A DNA stretch of 64,000 bases from Paraclostridium tenue (GTDB taxonomy: Bacteria; Bacillota; Clostridia; Peptostreptococcales; Peptostreptococcaceae): the NCBI RefSeq assembly GCF_015668515.1, contig NZ_JADPFO010000002.1, positions 128,992 to 192,991 on the forward strand, given 5' to 3'. Shown here in pieces: positions 38,762-63,849 of the stretch (position 1 is its first letter; every line of letters begins with the position of its first letter). The notes beneath the pieces were generated by a model. It worked only from the letters and a program-made list of their open reading frames with translations, was not told where the DNA came from and did no database searches. The translations under genes and the position numbers were made by a program.

Positions 38762-38827
38762 AAGTTAATTAGTGAAAAATAAAGATAATATTTTTAATAA
38801 ATTATAAATTCTATGGGGGGAAAAATA

Positions 38828-39640
38828 ATGAACGAAAAAATAAAGATAGTTTTAGCTGATGATAATAGGGACTTTTGTCAAGTATTAAAAGAGTATTTAT
38901 CTAATGAAGATGATATAGAAATATTAGGGATTGCAAAAGATGGTATTGAAGCATTAGATTTAGTTTCTAGAACACAACCAGATGTATTAGTTTTAGATGT
39001 TATAATGCCACATCTTGATGGATTAGGGGTAATAGAAAAATTAAATTCTATGAACTTAGACAAAATGCCTAAGATCATAGTTTTATCTGCAGTAGGTCAA
39101 GATAAAATAACTCAAAGTGCAATTAATTTAGGAGCAGATTATTATATAGTTAAACCTTTTGATTTCGTAATATTTATAAATAGAATAAGAGGTTTAGTTT
39201 CAAATAAAAATACAGTTGTAGAGTCTAAATCTAGGGGTAATATGGATATAAAAATGACTAAGACTGATTTTGTAAAAAATGTAGGCAATATAGAAACTGA
39301 AATTACTAATATAATACATGAAATAGGGGTTCCAGCGCATATAAAGGGTTACTTATATTTAAGAGAAGCTATAAAGATGGTTATAGATAATGTAGAATTA
39401 TTAGGAGCTGTTACAAAAGAGTTATACCCAAGTATAGCTAAGAAGTTTAACACTACACCAAGTAGAGTTGAAAGAGCTATAAGACACGCTATAGAAGTTG
39501 CTTGGAGCAGAGGTAAGGTTGATACTATAAATCAATTATTTGGATATACAGTACACAATACTAAAGGAAAGCCAACTAATTCAGAGTTTATAGCTATGAT
39601 AGCTGACAAATTAAGATTAGAACACAGTATGGTTAAGTAA
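38828..39640 (+). CDS. spo0A: sporulation master regulator Spo0A
   Basis: Response regulator that starts sporulation. Receiver domain about 1-125 with Asp11, Asp12 and phospho-acceptor Asp57 in VLVLDVIMP, and Lys in VKPFD. The C-terminal effector domain (about 155-270) holds the helix-turn-helix [20 protein letters not shown], the nearly invariant Spo0A recognition helix. ATG 38828 is chosen over the in-frame 38813 ATG because GGGGGGA lies between them. 270 residues. No spo0F or spo0B is in the window; clostridial Spo0A is phosphorylated directly by orphan kinases. Confidence 0.98.
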
Positions 39641-56519: not shown

Positions 56520-56556
56520 TTAAAATGACATGGAAGGAAGAAAGGGGTGGCCTGAT
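56499..56556 (+). promoter_or_regulatory. stem-loop sequestering the sigK ribosome-binding site and start
   Basis: ATCAGGCCAC (56499-56508) pairs perfectly with GTGGCCTGAT (56547-56556), extendable by G-U pairs. The 3' arm holds part of the AGGGGTGG Shine-Dalgarno and reaches the first base of the TTG start. No T tract follows, so it does not look like a terminator. Confidence 0.72.
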
Positions 56557-57206
56557 TGACTATATTAAAATCTTTTGAAAAACCCTTAACTCCTGAAGAA
56601 GAGTATAATTATCTAACTAAATTTAAATTTGAAAAAGATGAATCAGCTAAGGAAGTTTTAATTGAAAGAAACATGAGATTAGTGGCACATATAGCTAAAA
56701 AGTATAATAATTCAAATGAAGATCAAGATGATCTTATATCTATAGGAACTATAGGTCTTATAAAAGCTATAGAGACTTACAATGTAGAAAAAGGTACAAG
56801 ATTAGCAACTTATGCATCTAAATGTATAGAAAATGAGATACTAATGAATATAAGAACTAATAAAAAGAACAAAGTTCAAGTTTCCTTACAAGATCCAATT
56901 GGAACTGATAAGGAAGGGAATGAGATAAGTCTAATTGATATATTAGGTACTGATATAGACCATATTCTAGATCAGGTGGAGCTTAAAGTACAAATAAGTA
57001 AACTATATGAAAAATTAGAGAATATATTAACTCCTAGAGAACGCGAAATAGTTCAGTTAAGATATGGATTAACGCCTCTTGGGTATAAAACTCAAAGAGA
57101 AATAGCGCAAAAATTAGACATATCTAGATCATATGTATCTAGGATAGAAAAAAGAGCATTAAAAAAATTAAGAAAAGAATTAAAATCAGAAAAAAGCCTT
57201 AACTAA
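56556..57206 (+). CDS. sigK: RNA polymerase sigma factor SigK, without pro-sequence
   Basis: Late mother-cell sigma factor, 216 residues. Diagnostic for SigK are LVAHIAKKY, DDLISIGTIGLIKAIE, SLQDPIGTDKEGNEISLIDILG and TQREIAQKLDISRSYVSRIEKRAL. The start at TTG 56556 gives a protein beginning TILKSFEKPLTPEEE, aligned with mature B. subtilis sigma-K, so the 20-residue inhibitory pro-peptide is absent, as reported for C. difficile. The frame is continuous with no skin element. AGGGGTGG lies six bases ahead of the start. Confidence 0.96.
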   Translation: MTILKSFEKPLTPEEEYNYLTKFKFEKDESAKEVLIERNMRLVAHIAKKYNNSNEDQDDLISIGTIGLIKAIETYNVEKGTRLATYASKCIENEILMNIRTNKKNKVQVSLQDPIGTDKEGNEISLIDILGTDIDHILDQVELKVQISKLYEKLENILTPREREIVQLRYGLTPLGYKTQREIAQKLDISRSYVSRIEKRALKKLRKELKSEKSLN

Positions 57207-57217
57207 GGCTTTTTTTA
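57190..57217 (+). terminator. terminator overlapping the sigK stop
   Basis: Stem AAAAAAGCCTTA / TAAGGCTTTTTT with a 2-base loop, then a T tract. It separates sigK from the kinase genes. Confidence 0.9.
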
Positions 57218-57313
57218 TTTTTTTTTTATTGAATCAAGAAATGACAAAATATTTGAAAAGCATGTGCTAATATTATTGTAAATAATAAATAAGTAGATAA
57301 AAGGTGGGAATAT

Positions 57314-59683
57314 ATGATTAATTATACAAGTAATTTAGAAAAAATCTTGGACATAAATTTAATCATTATAGTAGCTTTACTCATAAACGGTATATATATA
57401 GGGTTTATTGAAAAATTTAAGAATATCAAATACTTAAATCTTATGTATTTTGTAGAAACTTTAATATATGTAGTATTAATTTATAATAATAAATATATAT
57501 ATTCATATAAACCTATATTGATTTTATACACTTTGGGCAAAATTATATTTATATATTTATTTAAAAGCAAATTAAAATTAAAAAATCTGCCATTTATTTT
57601 AATATGTATGTTAGATATATTAAGTTTAATTTATATAAACTTAAATATAATTATATATCTTTTAATCAATATAATTATTAATTTATTTGTATGTAAATTT
57701 CTTATATTAAATAAAATAAAAGCTAGTCATAATAGATTAGAATATAAGAAAAATAAAATTACTAAAGTTAATGAAAATATAAATGTTATAAATAATAAAA
57801 TTGAAAAAGAAAAAATAATTCAAAGTGAATATAAGGAAGAAATATTAAACATAGAAGAAGACATAAATAAAGCTATAGAAGAATCTGATATGCCTATAGT
57901 TATATTAAATGAAAAAAACAATATAATTTATTGTAATAAACATTCTTGGAATACAAAAAGTATAAATTTAAATAAAGTAAATATTTTAAACTATTTAAGT
58001 GAAAGTTTTAAAAATGGACAAGAGTGTTTAAATATGATAAATAATTTACAATCAAATAAATATGATTCTATCAATTTATATAGCTATGAAGATAAAGTAT
58101 ATAGGTTTATATGCACTAAGGAAAAAAGAGAAGATAAAGAATTAAAAATATGCATCTTTAATGATATAACTCAAAGCACCTTAATCCAAAAGCAAATAAA
58201 AGAAAGTGAAGAAAAATATAGAAAGCTTATGGATTTATTAATAGATGGTGTCATAATCCATGACATTGATGGTATAAGTTATATTAATGATTCTGCAATG
58301 AATATATTTAATATTGATAAAAATAATGAGAATATAAGTTTTCAGGATATAAAAAACAAGATAGATAAATCTAGTATTAGGAAATTAAATGAAAGTTTAA
58401 ATATTGTAAATAAAGGTAAAGTTAAAAAATCAGTTAATAAATTTAAAACTATAGATGGAATGTACATCGAATTTATAACTACAAAAATTGAAGTCAAAGA
58501 TTCTGATGCATTATTAAGTATAGTTGTAGATATAACTGATATGGAAGCTGCATTAAAGCAATTAGAAGGAAGTAAAAAAACATATCAAGCATTGGCTCAA
58601 AATTTACCAGACGGAATAATTGTTATAGACAAGGAAAGTAAAGAATACGTATACCAAAATAGATCTATGATAAAAATTCTAAAAAAAGTTAAGGTGGATT
58701 CTATAAATAAATTTATAAATGATTATATCTCTAATGAATATTATGGACAGACTAAAAGATATGAGGTTAATAAAAATTATAGCTACCCAATAGGAATAAC
58801 TATAAAAGATATTAAAGAAGAAAATCAATTAATGGTCATAATAAGACCTTTAGAGTATGAAGATAGAATTTTAGAAGCTATTAAAGAACTAGATTTGGTA
58901 AATGTTCAACATCACGTGAAAAATGAATTTTTAATCAATACATCTAAATGTCTAAAAGATCCTATAGAAAATATTATAATTATAAATAAAATATTAGAAG
59001 CTAATAAATATAAATCTAATCATATAGATAATTATAATAATCTTGTTAAACGAAATTGTTACAGATTAAAAAGGTTGATAAATAATATGAATGAAGTCGT
59101 AGAAGTCGAAAATGGTTCATGTTTAACTAATTTTGTATATTGCGACATAATTAAATTTACAAAAAATATAATTAGATATGCAAATGATTATTTATTTGAT
59201 AAAGGTGTTAGCATAAATTTCAAAACAGATATAGATTCAAGTGTTTTAAAAGTTGATATAGACAAGATGGAGCGTATAATATTAAATTTAATATCTAATG
59301 CTATAAAATTTAGTGATATTAAAAATTCGATAGATATAGAGATAACAAAGGATAAAGAATATACAAATATAAGTATCAAAGATTATGGAGTAGGAATACC
59401 GAAAGATCGATTGAGTTTTATATTTACAAAGTTTGGACAAGTAGATAAAACTTTATCTAGAAATACTGAAGGAAGTGGGGTTGGATTGTCCTTAGTTAAG
59501 GCTTTTGTAAATCTACATGGAGGTAATATTAATGTGGAAAGTGAAGAAGGAAAAGGAAGTAAGTTCACGATATCTTTAAAAGAAGTCTTAAATATAAGTG
59601 ATGAAAATTTAATAGAAGTAAATAACTACAATTTACCTATGTGGGAAAAAATGCATATAGAGTTTGCTGATATATACTTTTAA
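57314..59683 (+). CDS. membrane PAS histidine kinase-like protein lacking the phospho-accepting His
   Basis: 789 residues. The first ~130 residues hold four to five membrane helices; a coiled coil (about 135-190) leads to two or three PAS-like domains (about 190-290, 297-410, 420-515). The DHp helix reads KNEFLINTSKCLKDPIEN: where other kinases have S-H-E-L-R-T-P, this has Ser544-Lys545-Cys-Leu-Lys-Asp-Pro, so the phospho-acceptor is missing. The ATP domain is intact: N658 and N662 in the N-box, DYGVG at 690-694, and GSGVG at 720-724. The C-terminus EKMHIEFADIYF resembles clostridial orphan kinases. GGTGGGAA precedes the ATG. The next gene encodes the complementary half. Confidence 0.88.
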   Translation: MINYTSNLEKILDINLIIIVALLINGIYIGFIEKFKNIKYLNLMYFVETLIYVVLIYNNKYIYSYKPILILYTLGKIIFIYLFKSKLKLKNLPFILICMLDILSLIYINLNIIIYLLINIIINLFVCKFLILNKIKASHNRLEYKKNKITKVNENINVINNKIEKEKIIQSEYKEEILNIEEDINKAIEESDMPIVILNEKNNIIYCNKHSWNTKSINLNKVNILNYLSESFKNGQECLNMINNLQSNKYDSINLYSYEDKVYRFICTKEKREDKELKICIFNDITQSTLIQKQIKESEEKYRKLMDLLIDGVIIHDIDGISYINDSAMNIFNIDKNNENISFQDIKNKIDKSSIRKLNESLNIVNKGKVKKSVNKFKTIDGMYIEFITTKIEVKDSDALLSIVVDITDMEAALKQLEGSKKTYQALAQNLPDGIIVIDKESKEYVYQNRSMIKILKKVKVDSINKFINDYISNEYYGQTKRYEVNKNYSYPIGITIKDIKEENQLMVIIRPLEYEDRILEAIKELDLVNVQHHVKNEFLINTSKCLKDPIENIIIINKILEANKYKSNHIDNYNNLVKRNCYRLKRLINNMNEVVEVENGSCLTNFVYCDIIKFTKNIIRYANDYLFDKGVSINFKTDIDSSVLKVDIDKMERIILNLISNAIKFSDIKNSIDIEITKDKEYTNISIKDYGVGIPKDRLSFIFTKFGQVDKTLSRNTEGSGVGLSLVKAFVNLHGGNINVESEEGKGSKFTISLKEVLNISDENLIEVNNYNLPMWEKMHIEFADIYF

Positions 59684-59719
59684 AAAAGTATAACCATAAA
59701 TGTATAGGGGGAATAAGTT

Positions 59720-61993
59720 ATGGTTGATAAATTAATATATATAATGAATTTGTCACTTTTAATAGCTAGTATATTTTGTCTAACTTCTCATAAAAACAAA
59801 AAAAATATAAGTATTAATTTAATTATAGTTTTAATATTTTTTCTAAACTTTTTTAACTTTAAAATGTTAAGTTATATATATATAATATCTGCATTTATTA
59901 GTTTGAATTGTATTTTGATTATAAATGATTATGATTTAAGAAAAGACAAAAATACTAAATTAATTACTTTAATATTAATTGTTTTAAGTACCATTATATT
60001 AAAAGATAAATTAAAGTATTTAAGCTTGATTAATATATTATTAAATGCATATATCTTATTAAAAATATTTTATAAAAGAATATATGAAACTACTGTAAAA
60101 GATAAACATGTATATAAGGATTTACAAATTTTAAAAGATAAAGCCAGTAGTGATATTAAGGTTTTAAAAGATAATGAAGATGTAACTAAAGAAATATACA
60201 ATACATTAAATAATAAAAAAGAAATGCTAAATATTATATTAGAGCAGAACAACAAATGTGTAATAGTTATAGATAAGCATGGGTATATATCCAATGAAGA
60301 TAATAGCTTTTCAAATACATGGAAAGAATATGAATTCTGTAATTATAAAATTAAATTTTCATATTTTTTAAGCAAAAGTATAGAAAATAGCACTGAAGTT
60401 TTATTGGATGTCCAAAAAGTATACGATATAGGTATAGAGATGAATAGAGAAGTAATTAGTAAGGATAATAGATATTTTGATTGTAAGTACACACCTTTAA
60501 AAGTTAATAATGAAACTATGGGTGTAGTATGTATAATGACAGATATAACTTATAAAAAATACTCTCAAAAGATGTTAGATTTTAACAAGATTAAATATAA
60601 AAAAACTATAGAAAATATTCCTCATACTATTGTTGTAACAAAAGGGGAAGAGATTATTTATAATAATAATAAAAATTTAGATATAGATGTATATGACAAA
60701 GATTTAAAAAAATTTATAATAGACACAAAAGTGAAAGGTAGTTTTAAAGGGAATGAAAATAATATAGGAAAAAAATATTTAAATATAAGTAAGACCAGTT
60801 TTAAAGAAAATAATATAACTAAGCAAATAGCCATATTAAGAGATGTAACAGAATATAAAACATTATTAGATAATATAGAAAATAGTTCGAAAAAATATAT
60901 ATCTTTAGTAGATTCTATACCACAAGGAATATATATATATGATTTTGAATCTAAAAAGACTATTTATGCAAATAATGTACTTCTTAATATGTCTGGATTT
61001 GAAAATGTAGAAGAATTCAACAAAAGCAATATAATAAAAGATATATCTTGGATCCTAAATAAGTTTGGACAAGATGTCAAATTTATAAGACACAAAATAC
61101 AAAATAGAAATGGAGAAAGTATAGATGTAGAATTAGGGGGAATTACCCTGGAAATAAATAATAAAATGAAATGTATTGGAATTATGAATGATATAACTGA
61201 AAAAGTTAAGGCAGAAAATATAGAAAGAGAGATTACTAAGAAAAGATTAGAATATAAACAGAAAAATCATTTTTTTATAAATATGTCTCATGAATTGAAA
61301 ACACCACTTAATTTAATAATGTCATCTAATCAATTGATGGAATCTATATTTAAAGATGAAATATTTAAAAATCCTAAAGGAGAAATAGCCAAGGCTACTA
61401 AAATAGTTAAGAAGCAAGGTTATATATCGTTAAGGCTTATTGAAAATATAATAACTTTAGCTAAGTTAGAATCAGATTTTTATAAACCAAAATTAGATTA
61501 TTATGATATTGTAAGTATAGTTGAAGATATAATAATTGAAGTTAATAAATATTCTAAAAATGATGGTATAGAGTTTATATTTGATACAGATATAGAAGAA
61601 AAAGTAATAAAAATAGATCCTTATGATATAGAAAGAGTAATATTATTACTGTTTAGTAAAATAGTAAAACAATCTAAATCTAAGAGCGTTATATATGTAG
61701 AGTTTTCACATAAAAATGATAATATAAATATATCTATAAAAAATAAAGGTGATTATGATAAATATTCATATTTAAATAATCAATCTAAAGAAAATATAAA
61801 TATGAATATTGAAGTTGCTAAATCTATAATGAAAATTTATGATGGCAACATAGATATTTTTGAATATGAAAAAGACATAGAAATAGCTATAAATCTAAGT
61901 TCAGGAAATAAAATAAATTATGAAAATAAGAAGGAATCAATCTTAAATAAGGAAGCTATTTATGCTGAATACTCTATGATGAATGCATTATAA
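59720..61993 (+). CDS. membrane PAS histidine kinase-like protein with degenerate ATP-binding domain
   Basis: 757 residues with the same plan as the preceding protein: four to five N-terminal membrane helices (to about 118), a coiled coil, and three PAS-like segments (about 165-275, 290-375, 385-495). The DHp helix is canonical, FFINMSHELKTPLNLI with His524. The ATP domain has lost its motifs: the N-box asparagines are Leu643 and Lys647 (ERVILLLFSKIVK), the DxGxG box is NKGDY at 675-679, and the G2 box is gone. It should accept but not make phosphoryl transfer. TAGGGGGAAT lies ahead of the ATG, 36 bases after its partner. Confidence 0.88.
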   Translation: MVDKLIYIMNLSLLIASIFCLTSHKNKKNISINLIIVLIFFLNFFNFKMLSYIYIISAFISLNCILIINDYDLRKDKNTKLITLILIVLSTIILKDKLKYLSLINILLNAYILLKIFYKRIYETTVKDKHVYKDLQILKDKASSDIKVLKDNEDVTKEIYNTLNNKKEMLNIILEQNNKCVIVIDKHGYISNEDNSFSNTWKEYEFCNYKIKFSYFLSKSIENSTEVLLDVQKVYDIGIEMNREVISKDNRYFDCKYTPLKVNNETMGVVCIMTDITYKKYSQKMLDFNKIKYKKTIENIPHTIVVTKGEEIIYNNNKNLDIDVYDKDLKKFIIDTKVKGSFKGNENNIGKKYLNISKTSFKENNITKQIAILRDVTEYKTLLDNIENSSKKYISLVDSIPQGIYIYDFESKKTIYANNVLLNMSGFENVEEFNKSNIIKDISWILNKFGQDVKFIRHKIQNRNGESIDVELGGITLEINNKMKCIGIMNDITEKVKAENIEREITKKRLEYKQKNHFFINMSHELKTPLNLIMSSNQLMESIFKDEIFKNPKGEIAKATKIVKKQGYISLRLIENIITLAKLESDFYKPKLDYYDIVSIVEDIIIEVNKYSKNDGIEFIFDTDIEEKVIKIDPYDIERVILLLFSKIVKQSKSKSVIYVEFSHKNDNINISIKNKGDYDKYSYLNNQSKENINMNIEVAKSIMKIYDGNIDIFEYEKDIEIAINLSSGNKINYENKKESILNKEAIYAEYSMMNAL

Positions 61994-62151: not shown

Positions 62152-63000
62152 ATGGATATAAATGCAAAAACTAAATTAATATGTTTAATAGGGCATCCAA
62201 TTGAACATAGCTTATCACCGGATATACACAATTATCTTTTAAATAAATACAATTTAAATATGAATTATGTATGTTTTGATGTAGAAAAAGAAAATTTAAA
62301 AGAAGCTGTAAAAGGGTTAAAAGCACTAGGAATAAAAGGGTGTAATGTTACAATTCCTCATAAAGTAGATATTATTAAATTTTTAGACGAAGTAGATAAT
62401 AATGCTAAATTAATAGGAGCTGTAAACACAATAAAAAATGAAAATGGGAAACTTATAGGATATAATACAGATGGAGTAGGATTTGTTAAATCAATAATAG
62501 ATAAAGGATATAAGCTGAAAAATAAAAAAATTTTAATTATAGGAGCAGGTGGTGCTTGTAGAAGTATTGCTATAGAATTGGCATCTAATGGTGTTAAAGA
62601 AATAGAAATAAGAAATAGAAGTATAGAAAATGCAGAAGTTATATGTAATGTAATAAACAAGCATTTTAAAACTAAAAGCAAATGCTCATCAAAACCTATA
62701 ATGAAAAGTGATTTAGAGGACATAGATATAATTATAAACACGACGCCTATTGGAATGGATAAAGATAAAGATAATTGTCCTATAGATGAAAATTTAGTTA
62801 TAGATAAAAAAATTCTTTTATGTGACATAGTTTATAATCCTCATGAAACTAAATTTATAGCTTGGGGTAAGAAAAATAAATTTGATGTTGTATATGGAAT
62901 AGACATGCTTATAAATCAGGCTATACATGGGTTTTATATATGGACTAACATAAAGGCTGATGAAACAAAAAATTTAAAATATAAATTGAAAGGTATTTAA
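62152..63000 (+). CDS. aroE: shikimate dehydrogenase
   Basis: NADPH-dependent reduction of 3-dehydroshikimate. Substrate-binding HSLSPDIHN and NVTIPHK with catalytic Lys, NTDG, the cofactor loop GAGGACRSIA, and INTTPIGM. 282 residues. TTAGGAGG precedes the ATG. It is immediately followed by a prepilin-like gene, so its transcript may extend into the pilin cluster. No other shikimate gene is present. Confidence 0.96.
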   Translation: MDINAKTKLICLIGHPIEHSLSPDIHNYLLNKYNLNMNYVCFDVEKENLKEAVKGLKALGIKGCNVTIPHKVDIIKFLDEVDNNAKLIGAVNTIKNENGKLIGYNTDGVGFVKSIIDKGYKLKNKKILIIGAGGACRSIAIELASNGVKEIEIRNRSIENAEVICNVINKHFKTKSKCSSKPIMKSDLEDIDIIINTTPIGMDKDKDNCPIDENLVIDKKILLCDIVYNPHETKFIAWGKKNKFDVVYGIDMLINQAIHGFYIWTNIKADETKNLKYKLKGI

Positions 63001-63001
63001 A

Positions 63002-63355
63002 TTGAAAATTAAACGAAATGGGTTTCTTATTTTAGAAAATGTTATATCTTTAAGCTTAATAGGATTAATATCATCGCTAGTTGTATCTGTTTTATCAACT
63101 AGCATTTTTTGTATAAATAGGTCTTACAAAAGTACTGAGATGCTAAATATAGCAAAAAATGAGATGTGTGATATAGAATATTCTATAGATAATACAGATG
63201 TAGAAGAAGAACATAGAAAGAAAATGATAAAAGATTATGAAATAGATTATAAAATAGAAAAAAGTGATAAATATTATAATTGTTATAAAGTTGATATTGC
63301 TGTAAGGCATAAAGATAAAGAAGTAAAATTAAATAGTTATGTGGTGAAAAGTTGA
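63002..63355 (+). CDS. type IV prepilin-like protein
   Basis: 117 residues with a type III/IV prepilin leader: a short basic leader KIKRNG, then FLILENVISLSLIGLISSLVVSVL, with Gly at -1 and Glu at +5 of the predicted cleavage site and a hydrophobic helix. The rest is a small polar domain with a Cys pair. It is probably a minor pilin or pseudopilin. TTG 63002 lies one base after aroE; its ribosome-binding site is weak (AAAGGT). It overlaps the next gene by four bases. Confidence 0.8.
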   Translation: MKIKRNGFLILENVISLSLIGLISSLVVSVLSTSIFCINRSYKSTEMLNIAKNEMCDIEYSIDNTDVEEEHRKKMIKDYEIDYKIEKSDKYYNCYKVDIAVRHKDKEVKLNSYVVKS

Positions 63356-63849
63356 GAAAAAATTTAGGATCTATAATGGTTACAACACTTTTTTGCTTTT
63401 CTATATTGAGCATTTTATGTTTAAGTTGCTTAGATATAATACGTTCAAATAATGATATAATAAGTGTTTATGAAGAATCATTAAACTTGCAATACGAAGT
63501 AAAAGGTGGACTGAATTTAGCACACAGTAAAATTTTAGAGGAAGTTGATAAAGCTATAGAAATAGCTATAAAAGATGAATATCCTGAAGATAAATATAAG
63601 GATTATTTCTTAGGAAGTAATAAAATAAATTTTATAAAATCTATAGAGAGTTTAGACTGTGAAAACATAATTTTAGATGTAATTAATAATAAAATTTACA
63701 CAGAAGATAACTATATAAAATTAGATATAACGTGTTCTAAAAGTAATAAAGAAATTAAAAAAAGTGTGAGGTGTTCATTTAAAATAAGTATGAATATAGA
63801 AGATATTAATAAGAACAAGGTATATAAATACAACTATAAGGAGATATAA
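63352..63849 (+). CDS. PilX-like pilus assembly protein
   Basis: 165 residues: a basic N-terminus (MRKNLGS), a hydrophobic helix (about 8-27) and a polar C-terminal part with several Cys. It lacks the Glu+5 of standard prepilins. The form and position between two prepilin genes resemble PilX/GspK-like minor pilins. TTG 63352 is preceded by GGTGA and overlaps the previous stop (TTGA). Confidence 0.68.
   Translation: MRKNLGSIMVTTLFCFSILSILCLSCLDIIRSNNDIISVYEESLNLQYEVKGGLNLAHSKILEEVDKAIEIAIKDEYPEDKYKDYFLGSNKINFIKSIESLDCENIILDVINNKIYTEDNYIKLDITCSKSNKEIKKSVRCSFKISMNIEDINKNKVYKYNYKEI

Follow-up and report, generated by a model that had tools for sequence, protein, structure and literature searches.

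The 64,000-nucleotide stretch of Paraclostridium tenue DNA analyzed here (the window) carries two histidine kinase-like genes, P1 and P2, which are separated by 36 bp on the same strand and located downstream of sigK and the sigK terminator (Table 1). Both frames were found exactly where a first-pass annotation, made from the letters alone, had placed them, and sigK indeed directly precedes P1 as it had described. Both proteins possess PAS domains and have no adjoining response regulator, a feature that they share with orphan kinases. The absence of a response regulator nearby, also claimed in that annotation, holds for the immediate neighborhood but not for the window, as spo0A is encoded about 18 kb upstream of the pair. 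A block of the form TGACAAA(A) ... (G)CTAATAT, often followed by TATATAGCAAAA, was observed upstream of P1 in many genomes. It resembles a promoter or operator common to these genomes, with an unusually wide spacing of about 21 nt; a sigma-70 scan of the region gave no excess of promoters (51 vs 57.5 in shuffled sequences). At the other end of the locus, two short frames with N-terminal hydrophobic, pilin-like starts were observed 3′ of aroE, in the conserved neighborhood (63002–63849, + strand).

Table 1 Positions in the window of the P1-P2 pair, its functional sites, and neighboring features
Feature	Position	Strand	Length	Description
spo0A	38813..39640	+		Proposed phosphotransfer target of P2; same window and strand as the pair
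sigK	56556..57206	+		Conserved upstream neighbor, locus marker
Intrinsic terminator	57189..57216	+		3′ of sigK; separates P1-P2 transcription from sigK
Putative promoter region	57241..57276	+		5′ of P1 (TGACAAA ... TAATAT); recurs before P1 orthologs
P1	57314..59683	+	789 aa	Membrane/PAS histidine kinase-like protein; CA intact, no phospho-acceptor His (ATP half)
P1 codon 545	58946..58948	+		Lys at the phospho-acceptor position
P1 CA domain	59255..59587	+		aa 648-758: N-box N658/N662/K665, G1 DxGxG 690-694, F-box, lid, G2 GxGxG 720-724, all invariant
P2	59720..61993	+	757 aa	Membrane/PAS histidine kinase-like protein; DHp intact, CA nucleotide-dead (histidine half)
P2 SHELKTP	61286..61306	+		aa 523-529: acceptor His524, Glu525, Thr528 (HExxT motif), then specificity residues NLSSQL
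P2 degenerate CA domain	61595..61990	+		About aa 626-757: N-box Asn replaced by Leu643/Lys647, G1 Asp by Asn675; lid and G2 missing
aroE	62152..63000	+		Conserved downstream neighbor, locus marker

A comparison with the HisKA and HATPase_c profiles, which the first-pass annotation had proposed, gave a HATPase_c match (95.3 bits) and no HisKA match for P1, and a HisKA match (37.8 bits) and no HATPase_c match for P2; PAS segments were detected in both proteins. P1 therefore has an ATP-binding domain without the acceptor histidine, P2 has the histidine without an ATP-binding domain, and neither polypeptide combines an intact histidine with an intact CA domain. The individual residues on which the annotation had based this pattern were all correct, in P1 (Lys545, N658/N662, D690-Y-G-V-G694, G720-S-G-V-G724) as well as in P2 (His524, Leu643/Lys647). 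Within the source genome, a HATPase_c domain lies just downstream of 26 of the 27 HisKA domains, the sole exception being that of P2.

Orthologs were collected by a profile search of 71 genomes belonging to the same GTDB family, and most of them are 25–66% identical to the window proteins. The acceptor position of P1 is occupied by K, N, R, Y, E, D, or S and by His in 0 of 29 orthologs; the Glu at H+1 and the Thr/Asn at H+4 are also lost, except for one ortholog with Asn. The N-box asparagines, the G1 Asp and glycines, the F-box, and the G2 glycines were kept in all 29. In P2, the His, the Glu (+1), and the Thr (+4) were kept in 32/32 sequences covering the site, while the two N-box asparagines were present in none of the sequences covering that box and the G1 Asp was replaced, usually by Asn. 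The invariant columns cluster in the N, G1, F, and G2 boxes of P1 and in N-x-SHELKTP-x-N of P2. This reciprocal pattern is far beyond chance. A hidden acceptor histidine in P1, which would have spoken against the annotation's reading, was looked for and rejected, as the DHp domain has no His that is conserved across the orthologs (H533/H534 are confined to the genus of the window). The frequent His columns of P1 fall only in the PAS segments (H316 and the Y445 column) and, within the CA domain, at H735. We also observed a stretch, FDTxxEE (aa 621–627 of P2, 61580–61600), just before the lost N-box; it is invariant in P2 orthologs and absent from P1, and it may serve the dead CA domain as a docking surface.

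A profile comparison of the DHp-CA regions of P1 and P2 aligned 262 columns (99.8%), and the best PDB sequence match of both proteins was Thermotoga HK853, with a rewired HK853 variant coming first for P2. The AlphaFold models contain a DHp hairpin and a Bergerat-type CA domain in each protein, with a pLDDT of 89 and no ATP lid for P2, and a pLDDT of 78 and a low-confidence lid for P1. On the basis of these models, the nucleotide-dead CA domain of P2 is predicted to keep its fold. Foldseek placed both proteins among histidine kinases, with DivL among the matches of P1.

The pair is carried by 31 of the 71 genomes, distributed over 12 genera and including those of Romboutsia weinsteinii, Romboutsia sedimentorum, and Clostridium sp. 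CCUG 7971. Both genes were seen in 29 of them; the remaining two (G004 and G093 in our numbering of the genomes) show P2 only, located at a contig end. No unexplained occurrence of P1 or P2 alone was found among the 71 family genomes, and a relative with one gene alone and intact, which the first-pass annotation had named as evidence against its interpretation, was therefore seen in 0 of 71. Besides G004 and G093, three genomes (G002, G003, and G067) have contigs that stop at the locus or close to it. The gene order sigK-P1-P2-aroE was observed wherever the contig covers the locus, with the exception of genus g10, in which aroE was not detected beside P2. The gaps between P1 and P2 are usually 2–49 bp, with one overlap of 20 bp. 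In relatives lacking the pair (G009, G018, G015, G021, and G035), sigK and aroE are adjacent or in the same locus, so that the presence or absence of the pair is all-or-none. Many relatives that encode Spo0A, including a Clostridioides-like genus, do not have the pair. P1 and P2 seem to change in concert: their distances in 12 genomes correlate at 0.98, vs 0.89 with the neighboring PBP gene (partial r 0.89), although this is a simple statistic whose value can be inflated by similar domain make-up.

It should be noted that sigK itself is interrupted in some relatives. In G021 (locus L170) it is in two pieces about 7 kb apart, and in G019 (L175) and G026 (L174) only its first part lies beside the PBP gene, which is consistent with skin-type elements. 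In G033 (L072, 4203–4852) sigK is split into two frames and is intact in a congener; this break is either a sequencing error or a real loss of late sporulation.

Complementary lesions could also arise by coincidence, if the two genes were decaying duplicates of an orphan kinase, that is, pseudogenes or dispensable remnants. A few genomes with frameshifted or truncated copies, and several relatives that lack the pair, would fit such a history, but the frames stay open over long distances at 25–66% identity in 12 genera, and the catalytic residues are invariant on each side. Moreover, dN/dS between close orthologs is about 0.05–0.23 for both P1 and P2 and well below 1 in every domain, the dead CA domain of P2 included (0.03–0.21). 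Both genes are under purifying selection. Pseudogene decay is rejected on these grounds, and we give this explanation next to no chance. The damaged copies, frameshifted or N-terminally truncated, affect P2 in G014, G033, and G085 (L078, L072, and L189) and P1 in G028 (L074); G014 and G028 are one-contig assemblies. With damaged copies in a few strains, the pair may be dispensable in places.

The first-pass annotation had suggested a duplication followed by decay. Decay is the wrong word, because selection still preserves the domain that became noncatalytic in each protein. P1 and P2 may or may not be sisters: in the tree P2 leans toward orphan kinases of 902–943 aa, and an AU test did not reject P1 and P2 as one group (p = 0.39). 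A tandem duplication of one kinase is a possible origin of the pair. A second orphan-kinase tandem was observed in other family members (about 902–922 and 932–943 aa; loci L165, L162, L196, L197, L225, and L226). Both of its proteins have the His and the N-box, with the specificity residues NVSSQL and NLTSQL, and its first kinase is nearly identical to P2 around the His. This tandem is possibly a PtpA/PtpB-like set.

At its six DHp specificity positions P2 has NLSSQL, and most genera have NVSSQL; two genera deviate (NLLKQL in g10 and NLSSQF in g14). NVSAQV (CA_C0323) and NISAQL (CA_C0903) are the residues of direct Spo0A kinases in C. acetobutylicum; phosphorelay kinases mostly have TxGFQx, and Spo0B has QLGNSL (PMC6136694). 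Apart from the two deviating genera, P2 resembles the direct Spo0A kinases. It also differs from Spo0B, which is encoded beside obgE/L21/L27, in being a membrane/PAS protein encoded beside sigK and aroE. In the source genome, the orphan kinases are N.S.Q-like and the kinases adjacent to response regulators are mostly of the T/S type; P2 belongs to the orphan class. A DHp-CA tree grouped the P1 sequences in one clade and the P2 sequences in another, with full support and both inside the orphan group. The annotation had noted that the two proteins end like orphan kinases, which is true of P1 (IEFADIYF/IEFSDIYF) but not of P2, whose tail is distinct and conserved in its own right (IYxEYxxMCN in most genera). 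spo0A is present in all genomes bearing the pair except the fragmented draft G004, and its spacing to sigK is similar in relatives. The specificity residues and the orphan-kinase clade support the earlier suggestion of Spo0A as a candidate target, and the pair probably controls this sporulation switch.

Each protein has lost the half that the other kept, and this is conserved in about 30 species; P1 and P2 therefore most likely work only together. As P1 keeps what is needed for ATP and P2 keeps the His, Glu, and Thr, trans-phosphorylation in a heterodimer would be the simplest function for the two together. The explanation that we favor, and hold to be likely though far from certain, is that P1 and P2 together make up one sensor kinase of the HisKA type, split into two obligate halves and belonging to the clostridial orphan, Spo0A-directed class. 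The two proteins would pair via DHp helices; P1 would use its CA domain to bind ATP and phosphorylate His524 of P2 in trans, and the phosphoryl group would then pass from P2 to Spo0A. The HELKT motif of P2 would probably also serve to dephosphorylate Spo0A~P whenever P1 is missing or switched off. Because membrane segments and PAS domains are found in both subunits, two inputs would determine the output. Conservation, synteny, and purifying selection lend strong support to the split, complementary kinase pair proposed in the first-pass annotation. One difficulty is that HK853, the closest solved homolog of P1 and P2, autophosphorylates in cis; this counts against the explanation, as trans is the only mode open to a P1:P2 dimer. 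The deviating specificity residues of two genera, the damaged copies, and the many Spo0A-encoding relatives without the pair also speak against it.

The main rival to a split kinase is a phosphatase-only role, in which P2 would chiefly be a Spo0A~P phosphatase or a phosphoryl sink, as RetS or PtpA are, and P1 an ATP-gated on/off partner that never phosphorylates P2, the pair restraining sporulation. The HExxT transmitter-phosphatase motif is found in all P2 orthologs covering the site, and RetS of Pseudomonas aeruginosa was among the better fold matches of P2. Like P2, RetS has a degenerate HATPase and an intact HExxT motif, and it is a phosphatase that works by pairing with another kinase, GacS (PMC5992135). 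However, GacS is a complete kinase and RetS a hybrid with receiver domains, whereas P1, the co-inherited partner of P2, has no His. PtpA and PtpB of C. difficile, large membrane/PAS orphan kinases of the same bacterial family, lower Spo0A activity and repress sporulation, and they have been suggested to be obligate hetero-oligomers (PMC11210211). They differ in that a conserved His is reported in each (dispensable in PtpB), in being net phosphatases, and in lying at separate loci as judged by locus numbers; the P1-P2 pair was absent from the Clostridioides-like genomes examined. Two observations argue against a phosphatase-only role: the ATP-binding and lid residues of P1 are invariant in 29 orthologs, beyond the needs of an allosteric site, and the His and the H+1 Glu of P2 are as invariant as the phosphatase Thr. 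We consider this role rather unlikely.

Still less likely is a scheme in which the two proteins are separate enzymes of one pathway, P1 being a pseudokinase of the DivL kind that senses a phosphorylated regulator or a signal, and P2 a Spo0B- or ChpT-like phosphotransfer protein that is supplied by other kinases. With its nucleotide-dead CA domain and a His on the DHp domain, P2 does resemble phosphotransferases derived from kinases, but its specificity residues are unlike those of Spo0B, and strict co-inheritance and adjacency favor one joint activity. We know of no adjacent partner of DivL that lacks an ATP site. Caulobacter DivL, which as mentioned is among the fold matches of P1, has PAS domains, a non-His (Tyr) acceptor site, and retained DHp and CA folds; it lacks kinase activity and binds ATP poorly (57 uM) (PMC4211667), whereas all ATP boxes of P1 are intact and invariant, which argues against a DivL-type role.

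Split kinases and pseudokinase partners are already known one by one. Rv0600c and Rv0601c of Mycobacterium tuberculosis are incomplete kinases encoded side by side, of which one has the ATP domain and the other the His; they are short fragments of one kinase beside its own response regulator, whereas P1 and P2 are two full-length orphan proteins conserved over 12 genera. A precedent for the principle is found in Rhodobacter sphaeroides, where the kinase domain and the phospho-accepting domain are on separate proteins, CheA3 and CheA4, neither of which is active alone; together they phosphorylate their regulator, and the His half also dephosphorylates it (PMC3591291). These are HPt-type CheA proteins of a chemotaxis cluster whose halves miss whole domains, while P1 and P2 are full-length HisKA-type membrane/PAS proteins that have kept their folds and lost only catalytic elements, with Spo0A as the predicted target. 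Synechocystis Hik36 and Hik43 likewise divide one CheA-like kinase over two genes, both of which are needed (PMC7656254), but the genes are far apart and the division is a domain split instead of a reciprocal loss of residues. In the open-access literature, we found no description of two full-length, adjacent HisKA sensors with reciprocal losses, conserved across genera and aimed at Spo0A, which is weak evidence of absence. That literature also gave nothing useful on the biochemistry of Rv0600c/Rv0601c, on Romboutsia sporulation kinases, or on a His-lacking clostridial Spo0A kinase.

The identity of the kinases that activate Spo0A in Peptostreptococcaceae is an open question, stated for C. difficile (PMC11210211). 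Two proteins that are unable to work as separate kinases provide a clean genetic and biochemical test case: according to the obligate-pair reading, only the mixture should be active and both mutants should have the same phenotype. The pair also indicates that a reciprocal loss of catalytic residues can stay stable across many genera and is not a step toward pseudogenes. If the reading is true, P1 and P2 would be a split, bifunctional HisKA kinase occurring in nature, of a kind that modeling predicts to be switch-like, as it can give ultrasensitivity and bistability (PMC3591291). More tentatively, the pair might be an obligately heterodimeric, bifunctional split kinase acting on Spo0A, in which the two halves are separate full-length sensors, phosphorylation needs both inputs, and free P2 is a phosphatase, and which evolved once in Peptostreptococcaceae. 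Following the theory for split bifunctional kinases, it would then be a hard-wired switch for the all-or-none decision to sporulate.
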